Part shown: one piece after another, positions 556 to 37,989 of the stretch
How the letters are laid out: each line of letters starts with the position of its first letter
Position numbering within the stretch: the first letter of the stretch is position 1
NCBI GenBank assembly: GCA_022829145.1
Contig: CM040763.1
Location: 3,633,842 to 3,697,841, forward strand
From: Albula goreensis
Lineage: Eukaryota > Chordata > Actinopteri > Albuliformes > Albulidae
Direction: 5' to 3'
Length of the DNA stretch: 64,000 bases
Notes under the pieces: generated by a model
Databases searched by the model: none
Told to the model about the DNA's origin: nothing
Seen by the model: the letters and a program-made list of their open reading frames with translations, nothing else
Translations under genes and position numbers: made by a program

Positions 556-633
556 GCAGAAGAACACCCATGTGATGCTGAGTCCGCTGACACTGAACTC
601 TCCAGACAGAGTCCATCATCCTCCATCATGCAG
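556..633 (+). CDS. Coding exon, 26 codons, copy 1 of a duplicated exon
   Basis: The exon is preceded by a pyrimidine-containing acceptor ending TTTCAG and followed by the donor GTAGGA. It reads in phase 0 as an acidic, Ser-rich peptide beginning AEEHPCDAES and ending SSSIMQ. It is nearly identical to the exon at 2815-2892; one visible coding difference is His here versus Gln there. At 78 nt and phase 0-0, it can be included, skipped or doubled without a frame change. It may be a true tandem exon or an alternative to the second copy. Confidence 0.6.
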
Positions 634-3600
634 GTAGGACTCCCTTTATTGTGTTTTGTGTTTCATTTTTAGTCAAATATGTACAACTTTGCTCTTGTGC
701 ACACTGTTTGGTTGAGTTTAGCTCAGTGCAACATTGGTTTTACACATGCTGCTAAGCACAGTGTGGTTTCCTGATTCAGTTGGGACCAACCAGCCATTAC
801 TATGAGTACTATGTTACACACTTGTCTGGTGTTTCTTCATTTGGGGGACCATCGTAGCTGATTCAGTTGGGACCAACCAGCCATTACTATGAGCACTATG
901 TTACACACTTGTCTGGTGTTTCTTCATTTGTGGGGACCACCGTAGCTGATTCAGTTGGGACCAACCAGCCATTACTATGAGTACTATGTTACACACTTGT
1001 CTGGTGTTTCTTCATTTGTGGGGACCACCGTAGCTGATTCAGCTGGGACCAACCAGCCATTACTATGAGCACTATGTTACACACTTGTCTGGTGTTTCTT
1101 CATTTGTGGGGACCACCGTAGCTGAGAGATAATCTCCACAATTACTGATACTGGTATTACTCTTTCATTCACAATGTCAACAACACACCATATATTACAT
1201 AGAGCCTATAACACTGGGCTACGTTTGCCCCCTGTGGAGGTCGGACTGGTCTGTAATTGCAAACACTGGATGGCCCTAGGGTCCTGATAAAGATCTGAAC
1301 GTTTCAGGCTGATAACTCAAAGCGCGTGGACGCTATTAAAGAATTGCTGTTGAAATATGTCTCCCGCAACAGGAGGCTTTAAACATAACCATTGCTTTTT
1401 GGCCATTTTGGACCCTTCTGAATGGAACAGAGCTCTGATTTTTGGCACAAACAATCTATTCCCCAGTCTGGACTAAAACCTAAAAGCTCAGCTTCCCAGC
1501 TTAAAGTATTGGTGAGTTTTTCCAGAAATTAGGGCTAAAATCGTCAGATTTCACCTGAAAAGTTGACCTTTGACCCCTGTGGAGGTCGGACAGGTCTGTA
1601 ATTGCAAACACTGGATGGCCCTAGGCTCCTGATAGAGGTGTGAAAGTTTCAGGCTTATAACTCAAAGCGCGTGGAAGCTATTAAAGAATTGCTGTTGAAA
1701 TATCTCTCCCGCAAATGGAGGCCTTAAACATGACCATTGCTTTTTGGCCGTTTTGGACCCTTCTGAATGGAACAGAGCTCTGATTTTTGGCACAAACAAT
1801 CTATTCCCCAGTCTGGACTAGAACCTAAAAGCTCAGCTTCCCAGCTTAAAGTATTGGTGAGTTTTTCCAGAAATTAGGGCTAAAATCGTCAGATTTCACA
1901 TGAAAAGTTGACCTTTGACCCCTGTGGAGGTCGGACGGGTCTGTAATTGCAAACACTGGATGGCCCTAGGGTCCTGATAAAGATCTGAACGTTTCAGGCT
2001 GATAACTCAAAGCGCGTGGATGCTATTAAAGAATTGCTGTTGAAATATGTCTCGTGCCGCAGAAGGCCTTAAACATGACCATTGCTTTTTTGGACCCTTC
2101 TGAATGGAACAGAGCTCTGATTTTGGCACAAACAATCTATTCTCCAGTCTGGATGAACCTAAAAGCTCAGCTTCCCAAAAGTATTGGTGAGTTTTTCCAG
2201 AAATTAGGGCTCTGATTTCACATGAAAAGTGACCTTTGACCCCTGTGGAGGTCATGGGTCTGTAACAAACACTGGATGGCCCTTGGCTCCTGATAAAGGT
2301 CTGAAAGTTTCAGGCTTATAACTCAAAGAACTATTAAAGAATTGCTGTTGAAATATGTCTCGTCCCAGAAGGCTTTAAACATAACCATTGTTTTTGGTTT
2401 TCAGTTATTGGAACAGAGCTCTGAGAAAACAATCTATTCCCCAGTCTGGACTAAAATAAAAGCATCCCAGCTCAAAGTTTCAGTTATTCCAGAAATTAGG
2501 GCTAAAATCATCAGATTTCACATGAAAAGTTAACTAATAGTTCACATCACTTCTTCTATCACAGGTCAATCCAACCCTGTAATACTTGATATTCATTTGT
2601 TTTCAGCTGTAACAATCACTGCAGTATTAAAACAGGCTACACAAATGTCACATTGGCTAGAACCAAGTTCAACTTATGTGGAAAAAATATGACTTGGAGC
2701 CAGATACTCACAGATGTTGATATTTATGTTCTCCTTTAACTGTTGCTTATTATTTGGTCTAATGATTTTGGTTTTGTTGATTAGTTGCTTAATAATGATG
2801 ATTTATCATTTCAGGCAGAAGAACAGCCATGTGATGCTGAGTCCGCTGACACTGAACTCTCCAGACAGAGTCCATCATCCTCCATCATGCAGGTAGGACT
2901 CACTTTATTGTGTTTTGTGTTTCATTTTTAGTCAAATATGTACAACTTTGCTCTTGTGCACACTGTTTGGTTGAGTTTAGCTCAGTGCAACATTGGTTTT
3001 ACACATGCTGCTAAGCACAGTCTGGTTCCCTGATTCAGTTGGGACCAACCAGCCATTACTATGAGTACTATGTTACACACTTGTCTGGTGTTTCTTTATT
3101 TGTGGGGACCACCGTAGCTGAGAGATAATCTCCACATTTACTGATACTGATATTACTCTTTCATTCACAATGTCAACAACACACCATATATTACATAGAG
3201 CCTGTAACACTGGGCTACGTTTGCTTTCTACAGTTCACATCACTTCTATCACAGGTAAATCAAACCTTGTAACACTTGATATTCACTTGTTTTCAGCTTT
3301 AACAATCACTGCAGTATTAAAACAGGCTACACAAACGTCACATCAACCAGAATCAAGTTCAAAATATTTTAAAAAATAATTTAAAAAACATGTTTGTTTC
3401 AGTTTAGATCAGTGCACATTTGGTGTCAAACCAAGCACTGTCTTGTTTCCTCATTCAAATGTGTGTTGCAATTTCTTTCTTGTCGTTTATTCAAGTTAAA
3501 ATCAGTGTTCACAACCATTCTATTATCGGCATCAGATTCATGAGAAATCGCAATCAACTTCAATCTTTAAAGATTATATGAAATTGTTTCACATACCATT

Positions 3601-6600
3601 CACAATGACTGTGATTGGTACCATCTGTTGTCTTTTTAGCCAAATCATTTTGTAATATATATTTAAAAAAAATAATTATTTCAACAGTAATAGGCTTCAA
3701 GAAAACGATTGGCTCCATTTTAAATCCATTTAATGCCAACATTGATCTCGATCGTCATAAAATGTGTAAATGATCCCAAAGGTTTTTAATCTCAGTTTGT
3801 CAATATATTTTGTGTATATGTGTGCCATCATTCATATTTTAATTCTCCACTATTTCTTTTAAAGGACTTGGATGAACCAGAAGTTGGTCTTTCAGCAAAC
3901 AAACATGAAATCATTCCTCGCCTTGTAGACTACTCAGATTCTGAGGAATCTCAAGGTCCATGCACCAGTCCTTCCCAGCTAAATGGAAGCAGCCAGGTAT
4001 TTTGAAGTTGAATACATATTAGTCTAGACCAGACATTGTGTTATTGTCCTTTTTCATCTTGTACATTGGTACAAATGTAAATTCATTTTTTTTGGACATC
4101 ATAGATATGGAGTCCCACTTCTGAATCTGATCTTACCCTCACTGACCAGGACAGACAGTCCATTCCAAGGTTGAGGAGGACGAAGAGTGTACAGGTGTGC
4201 AACACACATAATGTAGAGAAAATATTAACGTATGTGCTTAACTTTTTGCCCTTTAAGTATGTATGATTTAAATGTAATTCCTTTTCTCTTCTGAAGATGA
4301 AAGAGCAGATGGAATTTGATTCAGATGAACTCTTTGATCCCAGCTCGGATGGCAGTGAAGAAGAATATATTCCCAAGAGTTTTGAAGATACTTCTGAAGA
4401 TACAGACACAAGTGACATTATTGCCTCAATTGACCAGAAAATGAAGAATAAGCTGATATTTCCAAACCTAGGAAAGATGGTGGATGTCAGAGATGAATGT
4501 CTGTCACTGCAAGAACTTGACAATACCTCTTTGAAGCCAACTATTAATAGAGGGCACTCACCTACAAGAAAAGAAAGTACCTCTGGAAAGAGACATAGAA
4601 GGAGATGTTCAAGTAGTGTATCCTGCCCAACTACACAAACAAGTACTGGTAACGCCACAAAACATAGAGGAGGGGGAGACACTGGAGCCCTGTTGGAAGA
4701 TTCACCAACTGATTTAGAGAAAAATCTACCTGATGGAGCATCTTCCCTGGGTGGAATCTCTGATTCTTTACCTGCCATACCTGCCGTTTGTAAAAAAGAG
4801 GATGGATCAAGAATTTATAACAAAAAACAGTATTGTTTGTACTGCAAGGTGGGGTTTATAAAAATGGCAAGGCATCTGGAGCGTGCTCATAAAGACAAGC
4901 CAGAGGTTGCAAGGGCTGTGTCCTTTCCAAAAGGCTCGAAGGAAAGACGCATGTATATCGAACATTTGCGAAACAAAGGCAACTTTGCACACAATGTTGA
5001 AGTGTTGAATTCTGGTGTTGGAACTCCTGTGCCACGCAAACAACCAAAAGAAGAATCTCAAGTGCAGGATTTTCTACATTGTGCATATTGTCAGGGCTTC
5101 TTTGTAAAAAAGGTACTTTGGAAGCACATGAAGGTCTGCAAATTCAAGCCAAGTATTCCACTAAAACCTGGCAGAACGCGTGTGCAGGCCCTCTGTGGAT
5201 TTACAGCACCTCCACCACCTGGAGTCAAGGAACAGCTTTGGAAACTGCTGAACAACATGATTCAGGATGATGTATACTTTGCTGTTAAAGCTGATGCCTG
5301 TATCATGGAATATGGGGAACATTTATACAACAGGCTTGGACATGATGTCGGCAAACACGAGTATATCCGTCAAAAATTGAGAGAGTTGGGGAGGCTGCTA
5401 ATATGTTCGAGAAAAAACACTCCCTTGAAGACGATCAAAGACCATATCAAACCTGCCAATTTCATGCATGTTGTCCAGGCTGTGAGAGACATGGCAGGTT
5501 ACAATTGTGAAACACAGGCATACAAGTGCCCGAGTCTGGCGCTCAAAATTGGATACAGCTTGAAAAAGCTTTCAATGTTGGTTGAAAGCAGTGCTAATGT
5601 ACAAAGTGACTTCAGTGCAGCAAAAGAAGCACGCACGTTTCGCAGAGTGTATGATACAAGGTGGAATGAATTGATATCATCATCATCACTTAGAACGCTG
5701 AAGGAGTCTAAGTGGAATACTCCTCAGTTACTCCCATTCACTAAAGATGTGCAGACACTCCATTCCTATTTAGATGCTCAGCAACAAGATCTTGTCAGAA
5801 AACTGTCCTCAGAGACAGCCCTCACGACATATACAGACCTGACAAAGGTAATTTTGACACAAGTCATTTTGTTTAACAGACGAAGAGCTGGGGAAGTGTC
5901 AAAAATTCCGCTTTCTGTTTATTTGTCTTACAAGCCATCAGACTCACAGGAGGATGTGAATATTGCACTCTCAGATCTAGAGAAGAGACTCTGTCAGCAT
6001 TTCCGAAGAATAGAAATCAGAGGTAAAAGGGAGAGAAAAGTACCTGTACTTTTGACCCCAGCAATGCAAGAGGCATTGGACCTGCTCGTCAGAAAAAGAC
6101 AGGAATGTGGGATTCTCCCAGAAAACATATACCTATTTGCAAGACCATCCAGTTTGGTTTGCTACCGTGGGTCTGATAGTCTTCGATACTTTGCGAGGGT
6201 CTGTGGTGCAAAGAGCCCAGAAAGTCTAACTTCGACAAAGTTACGTAAACAAACAGGAACCTTGTCCCAAGTCCTTAACCTGAATAATACGGAACTGGAT
6301 CAACTCGCCGATTTCCTTGGACATGATGTCAGAGTGCACAGACAGTTTTACAGACTTCCTGAGGGCACACTCCAGCTAGCCAAAATTAGCAAAGTCCTAA
6401 TGGCCCTGGAGCAGGGACGTCTGGCTGAATTCAAGGGCAAGTCCTTTGATGACATCAACATTGATCCTGAAGGTATCTAATATTTAATTGTTCCACATTT
6501 AAAACAATCTGCTTATTTGTCTTGGCATTATTAGTGTGTAATGCATTTTCCTCTCTCCTCTTCTGATCCTCCACAGAGAATGTGCACCTAGACAGCGACC

Positions 6601-9068
6601 AGGACAGAGACCCTGAGGTAGCATGTGAGTCAGACTCACTGGGTAAGTGTTTTTTTAATTTTTATTCTAAAGATAAATAGAATACTATCAAAAGTATTAA
6701 AATACTTTTTTTCTGATTTTGAGTTCATTCTGATATTGATATTTCCTAAATATTGATAAAATATGTTGATTTGAAGCAAATCCTCAAGATGTGATTGAAG
6801 AATAGATTTCTCTCTCAGAGACAGCCAGTGTGATACATTTGTCACTTAGCAATTTTCCTCCCTCCCCTTCTGATCCTCCACAGAGAATGTGCACCTCGAC
6901 AGTGACCAGGACAGAGACCCTGAGGCACCACATGACCCTGAAGCAGCCTATGAGTCGAACTCACTGGGTACGTGTTTATATATAATCCTAAATATTAATA
7001 GAATAATATAATAATGAAAAAATACTTTTTGATTGTCGTCTGATTAAGAGTTCATTCTGATACTGATATTTCCTAAATATTAAAATATGTAAGAAATTTT
7101 AATAAAGGTTGTATATGGAGACAGACACTTACTTTTTTAGACATCTGTTCTTCCTACAGCTTTGGCAACACTGTATTCAAATAGTCCTGCTAATTAAGGA
7201 CTTTGAATTAGAGAGACTGAGGGATAGAGACAGACAGAGAAATAGACAGAGGCACAGAGATCATTAGAATAATTGGACATACCATTGTCATTATAAATAT
7301 TAGAATTATTTTGATACTTGATGAAAGTTCTTTTCTACATTCAGATTTGTCTTTTAATCAGTGAAAAATATGCTTGGTTGGATTGAGATCAGCTGACTTA
7401 ATTTCATTTCATTGCCTTGAGAGGCATTGTAAACACATCAGAATTAATCTTACAATGTGTATTGTTACACGTGGAGTGTGGGCCGACTCCATGGGTGACA
7501 TATTTTGTATATAAGGTTTTCTCAAAAGATGAAGTCAAATCTGTGGGTCAGCATGTTTAGTTCAGTCCACAACTATTAACTGAACAACACAATGCAAAAA
7601 AAATCAATAACAAAATCAAGGTATTCAAATTTCTTGTCTAAAATGAGTAGGTGAAAGAAAATGATCAATTCTGTATGAAAGCAAAGTTCTCATTCTGTAT
7701 CATTCAAATATCCACACATAATTCATAAAAATAATTGCAATTTGTTAATTCATTGCTGCTAATCAGCTGTTGATTTACTGCCTCAAACTATCAACTGTTA
7801 CCATTAAGTAAATGAACCATAAAATACACACACTAAAACACTAAACACTCTAAAACAGAGGTGTCAAACTCATTTTCATTCAAGGGTCACATACAGACCG
7901 ATTTGATCTGATGTGGGATCATTAAAAAGATGGAGGGAAAGAAGGAAGGAAATATGGAGGGAAAGAAGGAAATATGGAGGGAAAGAAGGAAGGAAATATG
8001 GAGGGAAGAAAGGTAGGAAGGACAGATGGAAGAAAGGGAAGAAGAACAGATGGTAGGAAGAAGGGAAGGAAGGAACAAATAAAGGATAAAAGGGAGTAGG
8101 AAGGACAGATGGAAGGGCAGGAGGAAGAAAGAGAGGTTAAAAGGAAGAAAGAGGTTAAAAGGGCAGAAGGAAGTCAGGTCAGGGAGGAAGGACAGATGGA
8201 AGGGAAGAAGGACAGAAGGAAGACAGGGAGGAAGGACAGAAGGAAGACAGGGAGGAAGGATAGATGGAAGGAAGGCAGGGAGGAAGGATAGATGGAAGGA
8301 AGGAAAGGACGGAAGAAAGAAAGGATAAAAGGACAGATGGAAGGAAGGAAAGGACAGAAGAAAGAAAGGATAAAAGGACAGATGGAAGGAAGAAAGGACT
8401 GAAGAAAGAAAGGGAGGAAGGAAGGAAGGACCAAAGAAAGGATAAAAGGAAGTAGGACGGACAGATGGAAGGAAGGACAGAAGGAAGAAAGGGAGGAAGG
8501 ACAGATGGAAGGAAGAAAGTGGGCAATTGCACCCCCTTGGTGGGCGGTTCTGGCCACGGGCCGCATGTTTGACACCTGCCACATCTGGTCCCCTCCTACT
8601 TGCATGTCAGTAATTAGTTGTTGTTTTTTTTGTCTTTGGTTTTAGAAACTTCTGTCACAACAGAGGAAAGTGAGACAGCAGGGTCAGATGTGAGCCACAG
8701 AAAAATAGTATCACAACAGGATCTTCACAAACCTCTGACGAGGTTGAAAGGTAAAGTTTTTAAAATTTGAATTTCAAGATTGGCTGCCAAAAAATAAGTA
8801 AATTAACGAGAGCTACTTTGTTTGTGTTGTGTGTTGGTGTATAGGGCGACAACCTAACAAAAAAAGGATGTGGGAGAAGGATGAGGTCGCTGCCGTGGAA
8901 AGGCACATGATGTCCTTCATAGAGTCATGTCGGGTTCCTGGAAAAAGGGACTGTGACAAGTGCCTTGACAGTGAAAGAAAAGCCCTTCGAAATAGAAACT
9001 GGCTAAGTCTTAAGTTTTACGTTAAGAATCGCATCACAGCACTGAAAAAAAAAAAAAGTAGAGTTTAA
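556..9068 (+). CDS. Spliced gene: zinc-finger / tyrosine-recombinase-fold protein with C-terminal SANT/Myb-like domain (5' partial)
   Basis: This is a gene-level entry; exons are listed separately. Nine exons join in frame, at 556-633, 2815-2892, 3865-3996, 4105-4194, 4297-6472, 6577-6642, 6884-6967, 8646-8750 and 8845-9068. Each is flanked by AG and GT. The first four junctions are phase 0 and the last four are phase 1, which is hard to get by chance. The visible product is about 1010 residues: acidic Ser-rich N-terminal exons, two zinc-finger-like motifs, a core-binding plus catalytic tyrosine-recombinase region, acidic linker exons, and a basic C-terminal domain. I recall similar proteins annotated as uncharacterised multi-copy genes in fish. 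The recombinase fold suggests descent from a Crypton-like or other tyrosine-recombinase element. Whether it is a host gene or still mobile is unknown. No start codon is visible, since the first exon is entered in phase 0 from upstream. A nuclear DNA-binding role is inferred from the domains. Confidence 0.75.
771..1121 (+). repeat. 88-bp minisatellite, four copies
   Basis: Copies start at 771, 858, 946 and 1034, each opening CTGATTCAG. Copies differ by single bases and one short indel. The equivalent place in the second duplication unit (about 3032-3119) has only one copy, so the expansion is local to unit 1. Confidence 0.9.
1228..2532 (+). repeat. 345-bp tandem repeat, four copies, inserted in duplication unit 2
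   Basis: Copies open with CCCCTGTGGAGGTCGGAC or a close variant; the shared CTGTGG is at about 1232, 1577, 1922 and 2243, giving spacings of 345, 345 and 321. The last copy has several short deletions. The block interrupts sequence that is continuous in units 1 and 3 (after ACGTTTGC, resuming at AGTTCACATC near 2540). I do not recognise the family, and no terminal repeats were seen. Confidence 0.85.
2815..2892 (+). CDS. Coding exon, 26 codons, copy 2 of a duplicated exon
   Basis: It has the same acceptor and donor context as the copy at 556-633 and reads AEEQPCDAES at its start. The frame is phase 0 at both ends and joins the next exon at 3865 without a stop. The surrounding intron is also duplicated, so exon and flanks were copied together. 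The peptide is acidic and low-complexity with no recognised domain. Confidence 0.65.
3865..3996 (+). CDS. Coding exon, 44 codons, acidic N-terminal region
   Basis: The acceptor is TTTTAAAG and the donor GTATTT. Phase 0 translation runs from DLDEPEVGLSANKHEI through the acidic stretch VDYSDSEES to QLNGSSQ. The motif LVDYSDS resembles N-terminal acidic segments I recall from other fish members of this family. No folded domain is evident. It joins 4105 in phase 0. Confidence 0.65.
4105..4194 (+). CDS. Coding exon, 30 codons
   Basis: The acceptor is ATCATAG and the donor GTGTGC. Phase 0 translation is IWSPTSESDLTLTDQDRQ followed by a basic stretch RLRRTKSVQ, which could be a nuclear localisation signal (inference). 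It joins the large exon at 4297 in phase 0. The ATG at 4297 is therefore probably an internal methionine and not the initiator. Confidence 0.6.
4297..6472 (+). CDS. Large exon: two zinc-finger-like motifs and tyrosine-recombinase domain
   Basis: The exon has 725 full codons plus one base and starts right after an AG acceptor. Residues 1-170 (counted from the ATG) are acidic then basic and look disordered. Residues 180-198 hold a C-x2-C...H-x4-H finger, and residues 262-281 a C-x2-C...H-x3-C finger. Residues ~310-500 fit an alpha-helical core-binding domain, and ~505-700 fit the catalytic domain of tyrosine recombinases. The active-site matches are R530 in RRRAGEV, K577 in a GKRERKVPVLL hairpin that lines up with the GKGxKxRxVPL pattern of Xer proteins, R650 in TKLRK, H676 in LGHD, and Y685 in HRQFYRLP. 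The H676-to-Y685 spacing of nine residues matches Xer/integrase proteins. The His of the HxxR box is Thr647 here. The donor GTATCT at 6473 splits a Gly/Glu codon in phase 1; the TAA at 6478-6480 is then intronic. It could instead be a retained-intron end for a shorter isoform. Confidence 0.85.
6577..6642 (+). CDS. Acidic linker exon, 22 codons, copy 1
   Basis: The acceptor is GATCCTCCACAG and the donor GTAAGT; the phase is 1 at both ends. Joined to the large exon it continues ...DPE-ENVHLDSDQDRDPEV-ACESDSL. It is duplicated, with its 3' splice region, at 6884-6967. The symmetric phase means either, both or neither copy can be used without a frameshift. Confidence 0.65.
6884..6967 (+). CDS. 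Acidic linker exon, 28 codons, copy 2
   Basis: It has the same acceptor context as the exon at 6577 and the donor GTACGT, phase 1 to 1. It reads ENVHLDSDQDRDPEAPHD and on to YESNSL, six codons longer than copy 1 in its middle because of a short internal DPEA-type repeat. The linker is low-complexity and acidic, between the recombinase domain and the C-terminal domain. Confidence 0.65.
6968..8645 (+). other. Intron with a transposon fossil
   Basis: This is the non-coding interval between linker exons. The first ~890 bases are AT-rich without recognisable features except a short GA-rich patch near 7205-7262. The remainder is mostly the element at 7856-8578. Confidence 0.6.
7856..8578. mobile_element. 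hAT (Charlie-like) non-autonomous element with internal purine minisatellite
   Basis: The left end is CAGAGGTGTCAAACTCAT, followed by TTCATTCAAGGGTCACATAC, a familiar vertebrate hAT start. The right end GGGCCGCATGTTTGACACCT is roughly its inverse. No clear 8-bp target duplication was found (flanks CTCTAAAA and CCACATCT). The interior at about 7929-8520 is an imperfect GGAAGGAAGAAAGGACAGAT-type purine array. Open frames on both strands inside it are low-complexity artefacts. Confidence 0.7.
8646..8750 (+). CDS. Linker exon, 35 codons
   Basis: The acceptor is TTGGTTTTAG and the donor GTAAAG, phase 1 to 1. It reads ETSVTTEESETAGSDVSHRK and ends HKPLTRLK. The stretch is polar, Ser/Thr/Glu-rich and probably disordered. 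It lies just downstream of the transposon fossil at 7856-8578 and directly precedes the terminal exon. Confidence 0.65.
8845..9068 (+). CDS. Terminal exon: SANT/Myb-like basic C-terminal domain
   Basis: The acceptor is GGTGTATAG, phase 1, and the stop TAA is at 9066-9068. The domain spans about 70 residues: a basic KKRMWEKDEVAAVERHM helix, a VPGKRDCDKCL segment with two Cys, then LRNRNWLSLKFYVKNRI. The tryptophan spacing and helical pattern suggest a SANT/Myb-like DNA-binding fold. I recall this block following a recombinase-like domain in other fish proteins, which supports the exon chain. A run of about 14 A near the end encodes Lys, so copies could differ by slippage. Partial and full copies of this exon recur downstream in the array at 9826-12799. 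Confidence 0.75.
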
Positions 9069-9646
9069 CCCTTAAAAAGGAAGGGAAGGAGGGAGGAAGA
9101 AGGATGGAAGGAGGGAGGGAGGGAAGGAGGGAGGAAGAAGGATTGAAGGAGGGAGGAAGGGAAGGAGGGAGGAAGAAGGATGGAAGGAGGGAGGGAGGGA
9201 AGGAGGGAGGAAGAAGGATGGGGGGAGGGAGGGAGGGAAGAACAGATGAAGGAAGGAAGAAAGGATGGAAGAAAGGACAGATGAAAGGATGGAAGAAAGG
9301 ACAGATGGAAGGAAGGAAGAAAGGACAGATGAAGGAAGGAAGGAAGGACAGATGAAGGAAGGAAGAAAGGACAGATGAAGGAAGGAAGAAAGGACAGATG
9401 AAAGGATGGAAGAAAGGACAGATGGAAGGAAGGAAGAAAGGACAGATGGAAGGAAGGAAGAAAGGACAGATGAAGGAAGGAAGGAAGGACAGATGAAGGA
9501 AGGAAGAAAGGACAGATGAAGGAAGGAAGAAAGGACAGATGAAAGGATGGAAGAAAGGACAGATGGAAGGAAGGAAGAAAGGACAGATGAAGGAAGGAAG
9601 GAAAAAAGGACAGATGAAGGAAGGAAGAAAGGATAGAAGGAGGGAA
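9069..9646 (+). repeat. Purine-rich array, long type, copy 1
   Basis: The + strand is almost only A and G: first a GGGAGGAAGAAGGATGGAAG subunit, then a GGACAGATGAAGGAAGGAAG subunit. It begins just past the terminal exon's stop codon. Lys/Arg/Gly-rich frames on + and Ser/Phe/Leu/Pro-rich frames on - are artefacts of composition. Confidence 0.9.
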
Positions 9647-9825
9647 CATTTACCCTAACAGCTGAACTTAGATCTGAGGGAGGAAGGAAGGACCCGGGAG
9701 GACAACAGGAAGGTTAAAGAGTCTGTATCTCCTGGTGCACGTTGCCTGTTTAAGGGTTAAAGCTCTAATTGTTTGCTGTTAGAGTTGATGTGTATTGATA
9801 TGGGTGTAGTTACTTATACCAATAG
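9647..9825 (+). other. Unique spacer of the higher-order repeat, copy 1
   Basis: Non-repetitive sequence starts ACATTTACCCTAACAGCTGA and ends at an AG just before an exon copy. It recurs at 11099-11278 and 12547-12726. Its end (GATATGGGTGTAG) resembles the intron end before the true terminal exon, so it probably derives from that intron. Confidence 0.8.
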
Positions 9826-9977
9826 TTGAAAGGCACATGATGTCCTTCATAGAGTCATGTCGAGTTCCTGGAAAAAGTGACTGTGACAAGTGTCTTGACA
9901 GTGAAAGAAAAGCCCTTCGAAATAGAAACTGGCTAAGTCTCAAGTTTTACGTTAAAAATCGCATCATAGCACTTTAA
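9826..9977 (+). pseudogene. Copy B of the terminal exon (possible alternative last exon)
   Basis: It matches the terminal exon from the VERHMM codons on, with a few substitutions (for example Lys to Ser in PGKSD), and ends in TAA after NRIIAL. It lacks the first ~22 residues of the domain (KKRMW block). An AG directly precedes it, and splicing from the donor at 8751 would enter it in phase 1, in frame. Whether it is used is unknown. Confidence 0.65.
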
Positions 9978-10002
9978 AAAAAAGTAGAGTTTAACCCTTA
10001 AA

Positions 10003-10423
10003 AAGGAAGGGAAGGAGGGAGGAAGAAGGATGGAAGGAGGGAGGGAGGGAAGGAGGGAGGAAGAAGGATGGAAGGAGGGAGGAAGGGAAGGAGGGAGGAA
10101 GAAGGATGGAAGGAGGGAGGGAGGGAAGGAGGGAGGAAGAAGGATGGAAGGAGGGAGGAAGAAGGATGGGGGGGAGGGAGGGAGGGAAGAACAGATGAAG
10201 GAAGGAAGAAAGGATGGAAGAAAGGACAGATGAAAGGATGGAAGAAAGGACAGATGGAAGGAAGGAAGAAAGGACAGATGAAGGAAGGAAGGAAGGAAGG
10301 ACAGATGAAGAAAGGACAGATGAAGGAAGGAAGGAAGAAAGGACAGATGAAGGAAGGAAGAAAGGACAGATGAAAGGATGGAAGGAAGGAAGAAAGGACA
10401 GATGAAGGAAGGAAGGAAAAAAG
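10003..10423 (+). repeat. Purine-rich array, short type, copy 1
   Basis: Same subunits as the long array but with a different arrangement and about 150 bases shorter. It lies between exon copies B and C. Confidence 0.85.
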
Positions 10424-10503
10424 GACAGTGAAAGAAAAGCCCTTCGAAATAGAAACTGACTAAGTCTCAAGTTTTACGTTAAAAATTGCATCACAGCACT
10501 TTA
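10424..10503 (+). pseudogene. Copy C, 3' fragment of the terminal exon
   Basis: Only the last part of the exon is present (from DSERKALRNRN). The Trp codon after NRN is TGA here, so the fragment cannot encode the rest of the domain. It joins the purine array directly on its left without an acceptor. Confidence 0.75.
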
Positions 10504-10529
10504 AAAAAAAAGTAGAGTTTAACCCTTAA

Positions 10530-11098
10530 AAAGGAAGGGAAGGAGGGAGGAAGAAGGATGGAAGGAGGGAGGGAGGGAAGGAGGGAGGAAGAAGGATTGA
10601 AGGAGGGAGGAAGGGAAGGAGGGAGGAAGAAGGATGGAAGGAGGGAGGGAGGGAAGGAGGGAGGAAGAAGGATGGGGGAGGGAGGGAGGGAAGAACAGAT
10701 GAAGGAAGGAAGAAAGGATGGAAGAAAGGACAGATGAAAGGATGGAAGAAAGGACAGATGGAAGGAAGGAAGAAAGGACAGATGAAGGAAGGAAGGAAGG
10801 ACAGATGAAGGAAGGAAGAAAGGACAGATGAAGGAAGGAAGAAAGGACAGATGAAAGGATGGAAGAAAGGACAGATGGAAGGAAGGAAGAAAGGACAGAT
10901 GGAAGGAAGGAAGAAAGGACAGATGAAGGAAGGAAGGAAGGACAGATGAAGGAAGGAAGAAAGGACAGATGAAGGAAGGAAGAAAGGACAGATGAAAGGA
11001 TGGAAGAAAGGACAGATGGAAGGAAGGAAGAAAGGACAGATGAAGGAAGGAAGGAAAAAAGGACAGATGAAGGAAGGAAGAAAGGATAGAAGGAGGGA
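10530..11098 (+). repeat. Purine-rich array, long type, copy 2
   Basis: A close copy of the array at 9069-9646 with the same order of subunits. Followed by the same spacer. Confidence 0.9.
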
Positions 11099-11278
11099 AC
11101 ATTTACCCTAACAGCTGAACTTAGATCTGAGGGAGGAAGGAAGGACCCGGGAGGACAACAGGAAGGTTAAAGAGTCTGTATCTCCTGGTGCACGTTGCCT
11201 GTTTAAGGGTTAAAGCTCTAATTGTTTGCTGTTAGAGTTGATGTGTATTGATATGGGTGTAGTTACTTATACCAATAG
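11099..11278 (+). other. Unique spacer of the higher-order repeat, copy 2
   Basis: Near-identical to 9647-9825. It ends at the AG that precedes exon copy D. Confidence 0.8.
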
Positions 11279-11430
11279 TTGAAAGGCACATGATGTCCTT
11301 CATAGAGTCATGTCGAGTTCCTGGAAAAAGTGACTGTGACAAGTGTCTTGACAGTGAAAGAAAAGCCCTTCGAAATAGAAACTGGCTAAGTCTCAAGTTT
11401 TACGTTAAAAATCGCATCATAGCACTTTAA
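11279..11430 (+). pseudogene. Copy D of the terminal exon (possible alternative last exon)
   Basis: Near-identical to copy B at 9826-9977, with the same phase-1 acceptor context and the same TAA end. It lies 1453 bases downstream of copy B. Confidence 0.65.
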
Positions 11431-11454
11431 AAAAAAGTAGAGTTTAACCCTTAA

Positions 11455-11873
11455 AAAGGAAGGGAAGGAGGGAGGAAGAAGGATGGAAGGAGGGAGGGAG
11501 GGAAGGAGGGAGGAAGAAGGATGGAAGGAGGGAGGAAGGGAAGGAGGGAGGAAGAAGGATGGAAGGAGGGAGGGAGGGAAGGAGGGAGGAAGAAGGATGG
11601 AAGGAGGGAGGAAGAAGGATGGGGGAGGGAGGGAGGGAAGAACAGATGAAGGAAGGAAGAAAGGATGGAAGAAAGGACAGATGAAAGGATGGAAGAAAGG
11701 ACAGATGGAAGGAAGGAAGAAAGGACAGATGAAGGAAGGAAGGAAGGAAGGACAGATGAAGAAAGGACAGATGAAGGAAGGAAGGAAGAAAGGACAGATG
11801 AAGGAAGGAAGAAAGGACAGATGAAAGGATGGAAGGAAGGAAGAAAGGACAGATGAAGGAAGGAAGGAAAAAA
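11455..11873 (+). repeat. Purine-rich array, short type, copy 2
   Basis: A close copy of 10003-10423. It lies between exon copies D and E. Confidence 0.85.
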
Positions 11874-11953
11874 GGACAGTGAAAGAAAAGCCCTTCAAAT
11901 AGAAACTGACTAAGTCTCAAGTTTTACGTTAAAAATTGCATCACAGCACTTTA
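11874..11953 (+). pseudogene. Copy E, 3' fragment of the terminal exon
   Basis: The counterpart of copy C, with the same Trp-to-stop change and one additional missing base in the CTTCGAAAT region. Not coding. Confidence 0.7.
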
Positions 11954-11979
11954 AAAAAAAAAAGAGTTTAACCCTTAAA

Positions 11980-12546
11980 AAAGGAAGGGAAGGAGGGAGG
12001 AAGAAGGATGGAAGGAGGGAGGGAGGGAAGGAGGGAGGAAGAAGGATTGAAGGAGGGAGAGGAAGGAAGGAGGGAGGAAGAAGGATGGAAGGAGGGAGGG
12101 AGGGAAGGAGGGAGGAAGAAGGATGGGGGAGGGAGGGAGGGAAGAACAGATGAAGGAAGGAAGAAAGGATGGAAGAAAGGACAGATGAAAGGATGGAAGA
12201 AAGGACAGATGGAAGGAAGGAAGAAAGGACAGATGAAGGAAGGAAGGAAGGACAGATGAAGGAAGGAAGAAAGGACAGATGAAGGAAGGAAGAAAGGACA
12301 GATGAAAGGATGGAAGAAAGGACAGATGGAAGGAAGGAAGAAAGGACAGATGGAAGGAAGGAAGAAAAGGACAGATGAAGGAAGGAAGGAAGGACAGATG
12401 AAGGAAGGAAGAAAGGACAGATGAAGGAAGAAAGGACAGATGAAAGGATGGAAGAAAGGACAGATGGAAGGAAGGAAGAAAGGACAGATGAAGGAAGGAA
12501 GGAAAAAAGGACAGATGAAGGAAGGAAGAAAGGATAGAAGGAGGGA
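11980..12546 (+). repeat. Purine-rich array, long type, copy 3
   Basis: A third copy of the long array with small indels relative to the first two. Confidence 0.9.
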
Positions 12547-12726
12547 ACATTTACCCTAACAGCTGAACTTAGATCTGAGGGAGGAAGGAAGGACCCGGGA
12601 GGACAACAGGAAGGTTAAAGAGTCTGTATCTCCTGGTGCACGTTGCCTGTTTAAGGGTTAAAGCTCTAATTGTTTGCTGTTAGAGTTGATGTGTATTGAT
12701 ATGGGTGTAGTTACTTATACCAATAG
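12547..12726 (+). other. Unique spacer of the higher-order repeat, copy 3
   Basis: The same spacer as at 9647 and 11099, again ending in an AG before an exon copy. Confidence 0.8.
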
Positions 12727-12799
12727 TTGAAAGGCACATGATGTCCTTCATAGAGTCATGTCGAGTTCCTGGAAAAAGTGACTGTGACAAGTGTCTTGA
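12727..12799 (+). pseudogene. Copy F of the terminal exon, cut by the assembly gap
   Basis: Identical in layout to copies B and D up to the codons for CDKCL, then the sequence stops at the N run. The higher-order repeat therefore continues into the gap. Confidence 0.7.
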
Positions 12800-13299
12800 N
12801 NNNNNNNNNNNNNNNNNNNNNNNNNNNNNNNNNNNNNNNNNNNNNNNNNNNNNNNNNNNNNNNNNNNNNNNNNNNNNNNNNNNNNNNNNNNNNNNNNNNN
12901 NNNNNNNNNNNNNNNNNNNNNNNNNNNNNNNNNNNNNNNNNNNNNNNNNNNNNNNNNNNNNNNNNNNNNNNNNNNNNNNNNNNNNNNNNNNNNNNNNNNN
13001 NNNNNNNNNNNNNNNNNNNNNNNNNNNNNNNNNNNNNNNNNNNNNNNNNNNNNNNNNNNNNNNNNNNNNNNNNNNNNNNNNNNNNNNNNNNNNNNNNNNN
13101 NNNNNNNNNNNNNNNNNNNNNNNNNNNNNNNNNNNNNNNNNNNNNNNNNNNNNNNNNNNNNNNNNNNNNNNNNNNNNNNNNNNNNNNNNNNNNNNNNNNN
13201 NNNNNNNNNNNNNNNNNNNNNNNNNNNNNNNNNNNNNNNNNNNNNNNNNNNNNNNNNNNNNNNNNNNNNNNNNNNNNNNNNNNNNNNNNNNNNNNNNNN
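12800..13299. other. Assembly gap, 500 N
   Basis: Exactly 500 undetermined bases, the size often used as a placeholder. It sits inside the ~1.45 kb higher-order repeat on the left and abuts unrelated unique DNA on the right, so true length and copy number are unknown. Confidence 0.99.
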
Positions 13300-31222: not shown

Positions 31223-33467
31223 AGCAAACCCATACCCAATGACTGCAGTTTGCCATAGCATGCTAACCCATGCCCAATGACTGCAGTTTGCCATAGCATG
31301 CTAACCCATGCCCAATGACTGCAGTTTGCCATAGCACGCTAACCCATGCCCAATGACTGCAGTTTGCCATAGCATGCTAACCCATGCCCAATGACTGCAG
31401 TTTGCCATAGCATGCTAACCCATGCCCAATGACTTCAGTTTGCCATAGCATGCTAATCCATACCCAATGACTGCAGTTTGCCATAGCACGCTAACCCATG
31501 CCCAATGACTGCAGTTTGCCATAGCACACTAACCCATACCCAATGACTGCAGTTTGCCATAGCATGCTAACCCATGCCCAATGACTGCAGTTTGCCATAG
31601 CATGCTTACCCATGCCCAATGACTGCAGTTTGCCATAGCATGCTAACCCATGCCCAATGACTGCAGTTTGCCATAGCATGCTAACCCATACCCAATGACT
31701 GCAGTTTGCCATAGCATGCTAATCCATGCCCAATGACTGCAGTTTGCCATAGCATGCTAACCCATGCCCAATGACTGCAGTTTGCCATAGCATGCTAACC
31801 CATACCCAATGACTGCAGTTTGCCATAGCATGCTAATCCATGCCCAATGACTGCAGTTTGCCATAGCATGCTAACCCATGCCCAATGACTGCAGTTTGCC
31901 ATAGCACACTAACCCATACCCAATGACTGCAGTTTGCCATAGCATGCTAATCCATGCCCAATGACTGCAGTTTGCCATAGCATGCTAACCCATGCCCAAT
32001 GACTGCAGTTTGCCATAGCATGCTAACCCATACCCAATGACTGCAGTTTGCCATAGCATGCTAACCCATACCCAATGACTACAGTTTGCCATAGCATGCT
32101 AACCCATGCCCAATGACTGCAGTTTGCCATAGCACACTAACCCATACCCAATGACTGCAGTTTGCCATAGCATGCTAATCCATGCCCAATGACTGCAGTT
32201 TGCCATAGCACGCTAACCCATGCCCAATGACTGCAGTTTGCCATAGCATGCTAACCCATGCCCAATGACTGCAGTTTGCCATAGCACACTAACCCATGCC
32301 CAATGACTGCAGTTTGCCATAGCACACTAACCCATGCCCAATGACTGCAGTTTGACATAGCACGCTAACCCATGCCCAATGACTGCAGTTTGCCATAGCA
32401 TGCTAACCCATGCCCAATGACTGCAGTTTGCCATAGCATGCTTACCCATACCCAATGACTGCAGTTTGCCATAGCATGCTAATCCATACCCAATGACTGC
32501 AGTTTGCCATAGCATGCTAATCCATACCCAATGACTGCAGTTTGCCATAGCATGCTAACCCATGCCCAATGACTTCAGTTTGCCATAGCATGCTAATCCA
32601 TACCCAATGACTGCAGTTTGCCATAGCATGCTAATCCATACCCAATGACTGCAGTTTGCCATAGCATGCTAACCCATGCCCAATGACTGCAGTTTGCCAT
32701 AGCATGCTAACCCATGCCCAATGACTGCAGTTTGCCATAGCATGCTAACCCATGCCCAATGACTTCAGTTTGCCATAGCATGCTAATCCATACCCAATGA
32801 CTGCAGTTTGCCATAGCATGCTAATCCATACCCAATGACTGCAGTTTGCCATAGCATGCTAATCCATACCCAATGACTGCAGTTTGCCATAGCATGCTAA
32901 TCCATGCCCAATGACTGCAGTTTGCCATAGCATGCTAACCCATGCCCAATGACTTCAGTTTGCCATAGCATGCTAATCCATACCCAATGACTGCAGTTTG
33001 CCATAGCATGCTAATCCATACCCAATGACTGCAGTTTGCCATAGCATGCTAATCCATGCCCAATGACTGCAGTTTGCCATAGCATGCTAACCCATGCCCA
33101 ATGACTTCAGTTTGCCATAGCATGCTAATCCATACCCAATGACTGCAGTTTGCCATAGCATGCTAATCCATACCCAATGACTGCAGTTTGCCATAGCATG
33201 CTAATCCATACCCAATGACTGCAGTTTGCCATAGCATGCTAATCCATGCCCAATGACTGCAGTTTGCCATAGCATGCTAACCCATGCCCAATGACTTCAG
33301 TTTGCCATAGCATGCTAATCCATACCCAATGACTGCAGTTTGCCATAGCATGCTAATCCATACCCAATGACTGCAGTTTGCCATAGCATGCTAATCCATA
33401 CCCAATGACTGCAGTTTGCCATAGCATGCTAATCCATGCCCAATGACTGCAGTTTGCCATAGCATGC
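31223..33467. repeat. 38-bp minisatellite array, about 59 copies
   Basis: Each unit contains CCCAATGACTGCAGTTTGCC followed by ATAGCATGCTAACCCATG or variants. Variation is limited to a few sites (GCCC/ACCC, AACCC/AATCC, CTGC/CTTC, CATGC/CACGC). Copies are in strict 38-base register; the CTTC variant recurs at about 31431, 32571, 32761, 32951, 33103 and 33293, all multiples of 38. Minus-strand frames repeating MANCSHWAWVSMLWQ arise because three units make 114 bases; they are not genes. Confidence 0.97.
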
Positions 33468-37810: not shown

Positions 37811-37902
37811 GGCTCTGTGGCGCAACGGAGACCGCGTTGGACTTCTAGTCAAGCACTTGAAATGTGATTCAAAGGTTGTGGGTTCAAGTCCCACCAGAGT
37901 CA
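37811..37902 (+). tRNA. tRNA-Arg(TCT)-like gene with a short intron, possibly degenerate
   Basis: The acceptor arm GGCTCTG pairs with CAGAGTC. The D arm is GCGC...CCGC with one mismatch. The anticodon arm TTGGA-CTTCTA pairs with TTCAA, with anticodon TCT at 37844-37846. The T arm GTGGG-TTCAAGT-CCCAC is intact. About 19 bases (near 37848-37866) between anticodon position 37 and the 3' half fit the intron that vertebrate tRNA-Arg(TCT) genes carry. The D-stem mismatch and lack of a TTTT terminator nearby (only TTT) argue for a decayed gene or a tRNA-derived SINE head. Confidence 0.65.
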
Positions 37903-37989
37903 CCTTTATGGCTGCAGCAGTTCCAAAAGCCATCCATATCACAAGGACTGCAACCTGCTGTTTCACCCCCCCAGCTGGGGGGCACATAT

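Follow-up and report, generated by a model that had tools for sequence, protein, structure and literature searches.

Whether a vertebrate genome can carry, within a spliced gene, a tyrosine recombinase (YR) domain whose active site is nearly complete is the question raised by a locus in Albula goreensis. The window, that is, the whole stretch analysed, comprises 64,000 nucleotides (C23:3633842–3697841, on CM040763.1) of a genome of 932 Mb in 208 contigs. An initial sequence-only reading had placed such a gene at 4297..6472, with residue 1 at the ATG of position 4297. We propose that the locus holds a SETMAR-like fusion gene, in which a KMT5A-like SET domain would be joined to a Crypton-type (CryptonV-like) YR with the residues R-K-(T)-R-H-Y. 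Judging from sequence, we give this reading a probability of about one half.

The open reading frame at 4297–6480 is present in the window on the plus strand, as are all exons, motifs and codons given below in window coordinates, and encodes 727 aa. The stop-free run in the exon is 727 codons, as against a longest run of 182 in 300 shuffles of the exon. The exon itself (4297..6472) has GT-AG borders, with a GT donor directly after 6472, and its phase is consistent with those of the adjacent exons. It encodes an acidic region, two zinc-finger-like motifs (CLYC ... H ... H at 4831..4890; HCAYC ... H ... C at 5074..5139) and the YR-like domain. The two finger-like motifs were recognized by eye and are aligned in the paralogues; both are without a Pfam match. 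A spurious frame or a chance motif was considered, and is ruled out by the length, the introns, the paralogues and the register of the active-site residues. The range first taken for the gene is indeed spliced and ends at a GT donor, but the gene runs well past it on both sides. Likewise, the residue numbering from 4297 stands and is kept here, but the ATG is internal. Because the exon at 4105..4194 joins in phase 0, this ATG is not the start codon; in the predicted protein it encodes residue 388.

The predicted gene has 16 exons and encodes 1,271 aa, with no internal stop, a single terminal stop and GT-AG borders at all 15 introns. It starts 4.9 kb upstream of the window, in a 9.5-kb stretch that was fetched separately (L046). 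The model was predicted from genomic DNA alone and its exons were chosen by eye, so that the agreement of the phases is partly selected. In order, the protein consists of a KMT5A-like SET domain, six exon copies of 26 aa each, acidic linkers, the two finger-like motifs, the YR domain and a C-terminal domain. The three SET exons lie at L046 4628–4742, 5307–5469 and 5639–5831. They are followed by six tandem 78-nt, phase-0 exons, copies 1–4 of which are in L046, copy 5 at window 556..633 and copy 6 at 2815..2892. An acidic linker exon (3865..3996) and a further linker exon (4105..4194), both with GT-AG borders and in phase 0, precede the large exon. Downstream of it are an acidic exon at 6577..6642, its near-repeat at 6884..6967 (also acidic, exon plus intron being 76% identical to the former), a linker exon at 8646..8750 and the last exon with the stop at 8845..9068. 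This last exon encodes the C-terminal domain, which has no Pfam match, is common to the paralogues and in several of them is found again downstream of the YR sequence. The region from L046 5946 to window 3332, with the six 78-nt exon copies and several short tandem introns, is a repeatedly duplicated block. Elsewhere in the window, ARAGORN reports a 94-base tRNA-Arg (tct) at 37811–37904, and a 38-bp satellite, with 59 copies and 96% matches, occupies 31227–33467.

The upstream SET domain is assigned by Pfam PF00856 (85.6 bits, E 3.6e-24). Its closest solved relatives are KMT5A/SETD8 (E 2e-29), which places it with the KMT5A-type methyltransferases. SET matches on C4 and C25 are split at residue 92/93, which is also an exon border in the window gene; this shared border points to a KMT5A-type gene, introns included, as the likely source of the SET part. 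The window gene differs from KMT5A/SETD8 in its fusion to a YR and at the N-H motif, no intact form of which is present: both the window gene and L012, a broken relative, have N-D, and SET activity is therefore doubtful. A DNA query of the genome returned no second copy of the SET region. SET sequences 52–61% identical to that of the window gene were seen at C1:32106085–32106530 and C13:34923021–34939475, where no YR match is listed.

The assignment of the enzyme half rests on a profile alignment in which XerC, XerD, FimB, FimE, lambda Int and Cre served as the reference set. In this alignment, K577 (the beta-hairpin Lys, codon 6025..6027), T647 and R650 (T647-K-L-R650 replacing H-x-x-R, 6235..6246), H676 (in an LGH motif, 6322..6324) and Y685 (the presumed nucleophile, 6349..6351) fall on the catalytic columns, Thr647 taking the column of the His. 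With a wider alignment, R530 (Arg-I, 5884..5886) is in register as well. The residues expected of a YR, namely R, K, R, H/W and Tyr, are thus found in order and in register, and the one departure is the first His of H-x-x-R. These are the very positions that the sequence-only reading had named, and its spacing of nine residues between H and Y and its Thr647 in place of the His are equally confirmed. The R-K-R-H-Y set is used by type IB topoisomerases. Two mutants described in PMC4381057 bear on the missing His: recombination by Cre H289A continues, though less efficiently, whereas Flp H305A cleaves but goes no further. Since these two differ, Thr at this position neither proves nor excludes activity.

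Numerical support for the fold is modest. The two hhalign alignments to the reference YRs had E-values of 0.023 and 0.056; the probabilities reported were low (2.1% and 1.0%), and among 150 column shuffles 1 and 2, respectively, did equally well. The window protein alone had no relevant match in Pfam, PHROGs or the PDB. With 18 fragments (the window plus 17 from the genome), the Pfam family Phage_integrase matched three, none of which reached the curated cut-off (E 8.1e-4, 9.4e-4 and 3.1e-3); the window protein is not among them, and two of the three stem from copies that share 94% identity. XerS was matched by one of the 18 (3e-4). The profile yielded a single chance match in the PDB (E 0.3), and nothing in PHROGs indicated a YR. 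AlphaFold, run on the single sequence without relatives, returned a pLDDT of 38.5. For the region of residues 310–700, for which a fold check had been suggested, the residues are in register but the profile scores are weak and the single-sequence model is poor. The original proposal of a YR-like domain with a retained nucleophile in a spliced gene is supported, and we regard the large exon as probably encoding a tyrosine-recombinase-like domain, the sequence support for the fold being modest.

Conservation was counted over 19 fetched loci, leaving out the near-identical L010, with 10 to 12 loci covering each site. R530 is kept in 8/10, K577 in 9/12, R650 in 9/11, H676 in 6/10 and Y685 in 5/10, against a mean conservation of 0.40 over 220 positions. 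Free variation of the five residues among the paralogues, which would have spoken against the assignment, is not what the set displays: when five positions are drawn at random, about 1% of the draws reach the mean conservation of R, K, R, H and Y. This figure is subject to two caveats: the loci are interdependent, L009 and L013 being close, and some alignments of broken copies are doubtful. The conservation of the set rests on R, K and R, whereas H and Y taken alone are near average because several copies have lost them. T647 is kept in 8/11 loci; Thr at the first His position is thus the state of the family, and this, together with the upstream SET domain and the shared C-terminal domain, was overlooked in the sequence-only reading. 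For dN/dS between the window copy and distant paralogues, dS is saturated.

A protein search returned 40 matches; leaving the window aside, these fall at no fewer than 21 loci, which are spread over 16 contigs. Seventeen of these 21 loci are visibly broken by a stop or a split frame; 20 of the 21 were fetched. Six (L009, L013, L015, L016, L019 and L023) are about 84–95% identical in their main DNA blocks, and in five of the six the common sequence extends well past the coding exon, L019 sharing only about 1.1 kb. The shared unit measures 9.9 kb in copy A (around L013) and 9.5 kb in copy B (around L009), or about 9.4–9.9 kb overall. Its right end is common to A, B and L016, and its left end to A and B. 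All five ends so resolved adjoin (TG)n tracts, which account for 0.66% of the window, and on the far side of the tracts the flanks differ. In copy A, three exact copies of GTGAGGACC lie close to either end; those on the left occur in both orientations, those on the right in a single one. The sequence recurs at the right end of B and of L016, is lacking on the left of B, where about 400 bases of A are missing, and is absent from the other scanned loci save for one site in L018. With shared ends at microsatellites, the L009/L013/L016 subfamily has the appearance of an element that contains introns and has inserted into (TG)n. Some CryptonV families are said to insert specifically in microsatellites (Kapitonov & Jurka 2012, as cited in a passage of PMC8869645), and the five ends fit this report. 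With regard to the mobile origin suggested at the outset, a mobile-looking family is supported; spread of the subfamily by ordinary recombination between TG tracts is an alternative.

A SET domain was not found in the (TG)n-inserted subfamily. Between its copies dN/dS is 0.26–0.47 (NG86), and L009 and L013 have Cys at the position of the Tyr. Abundant non-autonomous relatives were sought as (TG)n followed by GTGAGGACC within 4–32 bases, which gave 95 forward and 20 reverse matches, the control with the pattern reversed giving 23 and 63; many of these matches are overlapping counts of one place, and with no clear excess over the control the idea was dropped. DNA queries found the right end at four places and the left end at one. 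A DIRS-type element was likewise set aside, no reverse transcriptase having been noticed by eye in the open reading frames of copy A. No relatives were confirmed in viral contigs, prokaryote genomes or phages.

The matched stretch is an open frame in two further relatives, L018 (C23:8.18 Mb) and L020 (C18:17.43 Mb). Each combines a finger-like motif and a YR-like part with the C-terminal domain and with a SET-like C-terminal half (E 2.6e-5 and 9.4e-6). At the active site they retain R, K, T and R, but have K for H and A for Y. Their dN/dS of 0.10 (NG86) or 0.03 (YN00) shows strong purifying selection, at about 0.1, and they look like domesticated sisters without catalysis. In YR sequence, the near-identical copy aside, the nearest relative of the window gene is L014 (58%). 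L012, 83.5% identical to L014 in DNA, is broken; upstream of its own YR lies a SET domain with 61% identity. In L011 (C18:26554500–26564000) the finger and core region is open and the C-terminal domain is present, and the stretch fetched there gave no match to the catalytic half of a YR.

The association of SET with YR in L012, and of SET-like, YR-like and C-terminal parts in L018 and L020, bears directly on how the window gene is to be explained. With an exon model made by eye from genomic DNA alone, one could suppose that only the model joins what are two separate genes, the upstream one being a KMT5A-like SET gene and the one in the window YR-derived. We consider this improbable, given that the last SET exon ends in phase 0, the repeated exons start in phase 0 without a stop, and in each of L012, L018 and L020 a SET or SET-like sequence lies upstream of the YR in the same orientation. 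Even less probable is a recently dead gene, without present function, whose frame is open merely through youth. This would accommodate the near-identical partial copies, one of which, on C13, covers window 3940–10002 with exon and intron equally diverged (99.5 and 99.6% identical) and with one- and two-base indels. It would also accommodate the unstable tandem repeat of about 1.45 kb lying downstream, at window 8967–12799, which contains broken copies of the last exon and ends at a 500-N gap (12800–13299). Against it, 1,271 codons and 15 introns are intact while most relatives are broken.

A stronger competitor, which we hold possible but doubtful, is that the locus is not a host gene but a SET-bearing Crypton, the last intact copy of an autonomous transposon with a SET domain in its own transposase. 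The SET-YR order recurring in broken L012, the dispersal of mostly broken relatives over 16 contigs, the catalytic residues kept in the window copy and a sister subfamily with element-like ends would all suit such an element. However, the locus itself displays no element ends: GTGAGGACC occurs neither in the window nor in L046, and between L046:648 and window 14817 there is no TG/CA tract of at least 12 bp, two intervening 500-N gaps leaving some doubt in both cases. Moreover, no SET domain was detected in the element-like subfamily. The recent partial copies lie, besides C13, on C1, at the start of contig C62 and on C8 (last-exon pieces); of the breakpoints seen, that on C13 falls within an exon, that on C1 just within an intron and that on C62 at the contig start. 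These breakpoints make segmental duplication or misassembly likelier than transposition as the source of the near-identical copies.

Under the preferred reading of a SET–YR fusion gene, the finger-like, core and YR parts would most likely bind DNA, either the ends of the family or TG-rich DNA, and would bring the SET domain there. The SET part would then modify or read chromatin at these places, as SETMAR does at mariner ends, and Tyr685 may still cut and rejoin DNA. A more far-reaching version, in which the protein is a SET-bearing CryptonV-like transposase that acts on chromatin and, now or recently, cuts and rejoins microsatellites by a working R-K-R-H-Y site, seems to us unlikely.

The comparison with known systems places the gene between several of them. 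The Crypton-derived DUF3504 genes (KCTD1, KIAA1958, ZMYM2/3/4, QRICH1 and WOC) are likewise vertebrate, spliced and built from a Crypton-type YR-derived domain fused to other domains, yet according to Kojima & Jurka 2011 (PMC3212892) neither the catalytic Tyr nor the second Arg survives in any known member. Such genes are described as catalytically dead, and the retention of both residues in the window gene is a real difference; in addition, DUF3504 has no Pfam match in the window protein. With CryptonV the likeness, drawn from description, lies in the YR and in microsatellite insertion as at the five ends of the (TG)n subfamily, whereas the window copy shows no such ends and the passage in PMC8869645 does not mention a SET domain. 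SETMAR/Metnase, as outlined in PMC9062482, is a SET lysine-methyltransferase domain, N-terminal as here, fused to a transposon enzyme, and binds its own old terminal repeats. Its enzyme is a mariner DDE transposase, whereas that of the window gene is YR-like and the SET part is nearest to KMT5A; Pfam finds no DDE family in the 4297–6474 product. Nimaviral YRs that insert into telomere repeats also combine a C2H2 motif with a YR and target tandem repeats, but they are viral, and the likeness is taken from their description in a passage of PMC10871703.

Among the papers listed by literature searches, judged by title and opening of the abstract, none describes a SET–YR or Crypton–SET fusion. Fusion genes with a transposon-derived YR are known as such; new here are the partner, SET, and the kept active-site residues. 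Similar C-terminal sequences presumably occur in many predicted fish proteins that databases list without a name or as KMT5A-like, so proteins of this kind may already be recorded there unnamed. Having an intact gene with all five residues beside constrained dead sisters and a (TG)n-inserted subfamily makes an active vertebrate tyrosine recombinase testable. In addition, the SET fusion would be a second case, alongside SETMAR, in which a lysine-methyltransferase domain was joined to a transposon enzyme, here one of another class.
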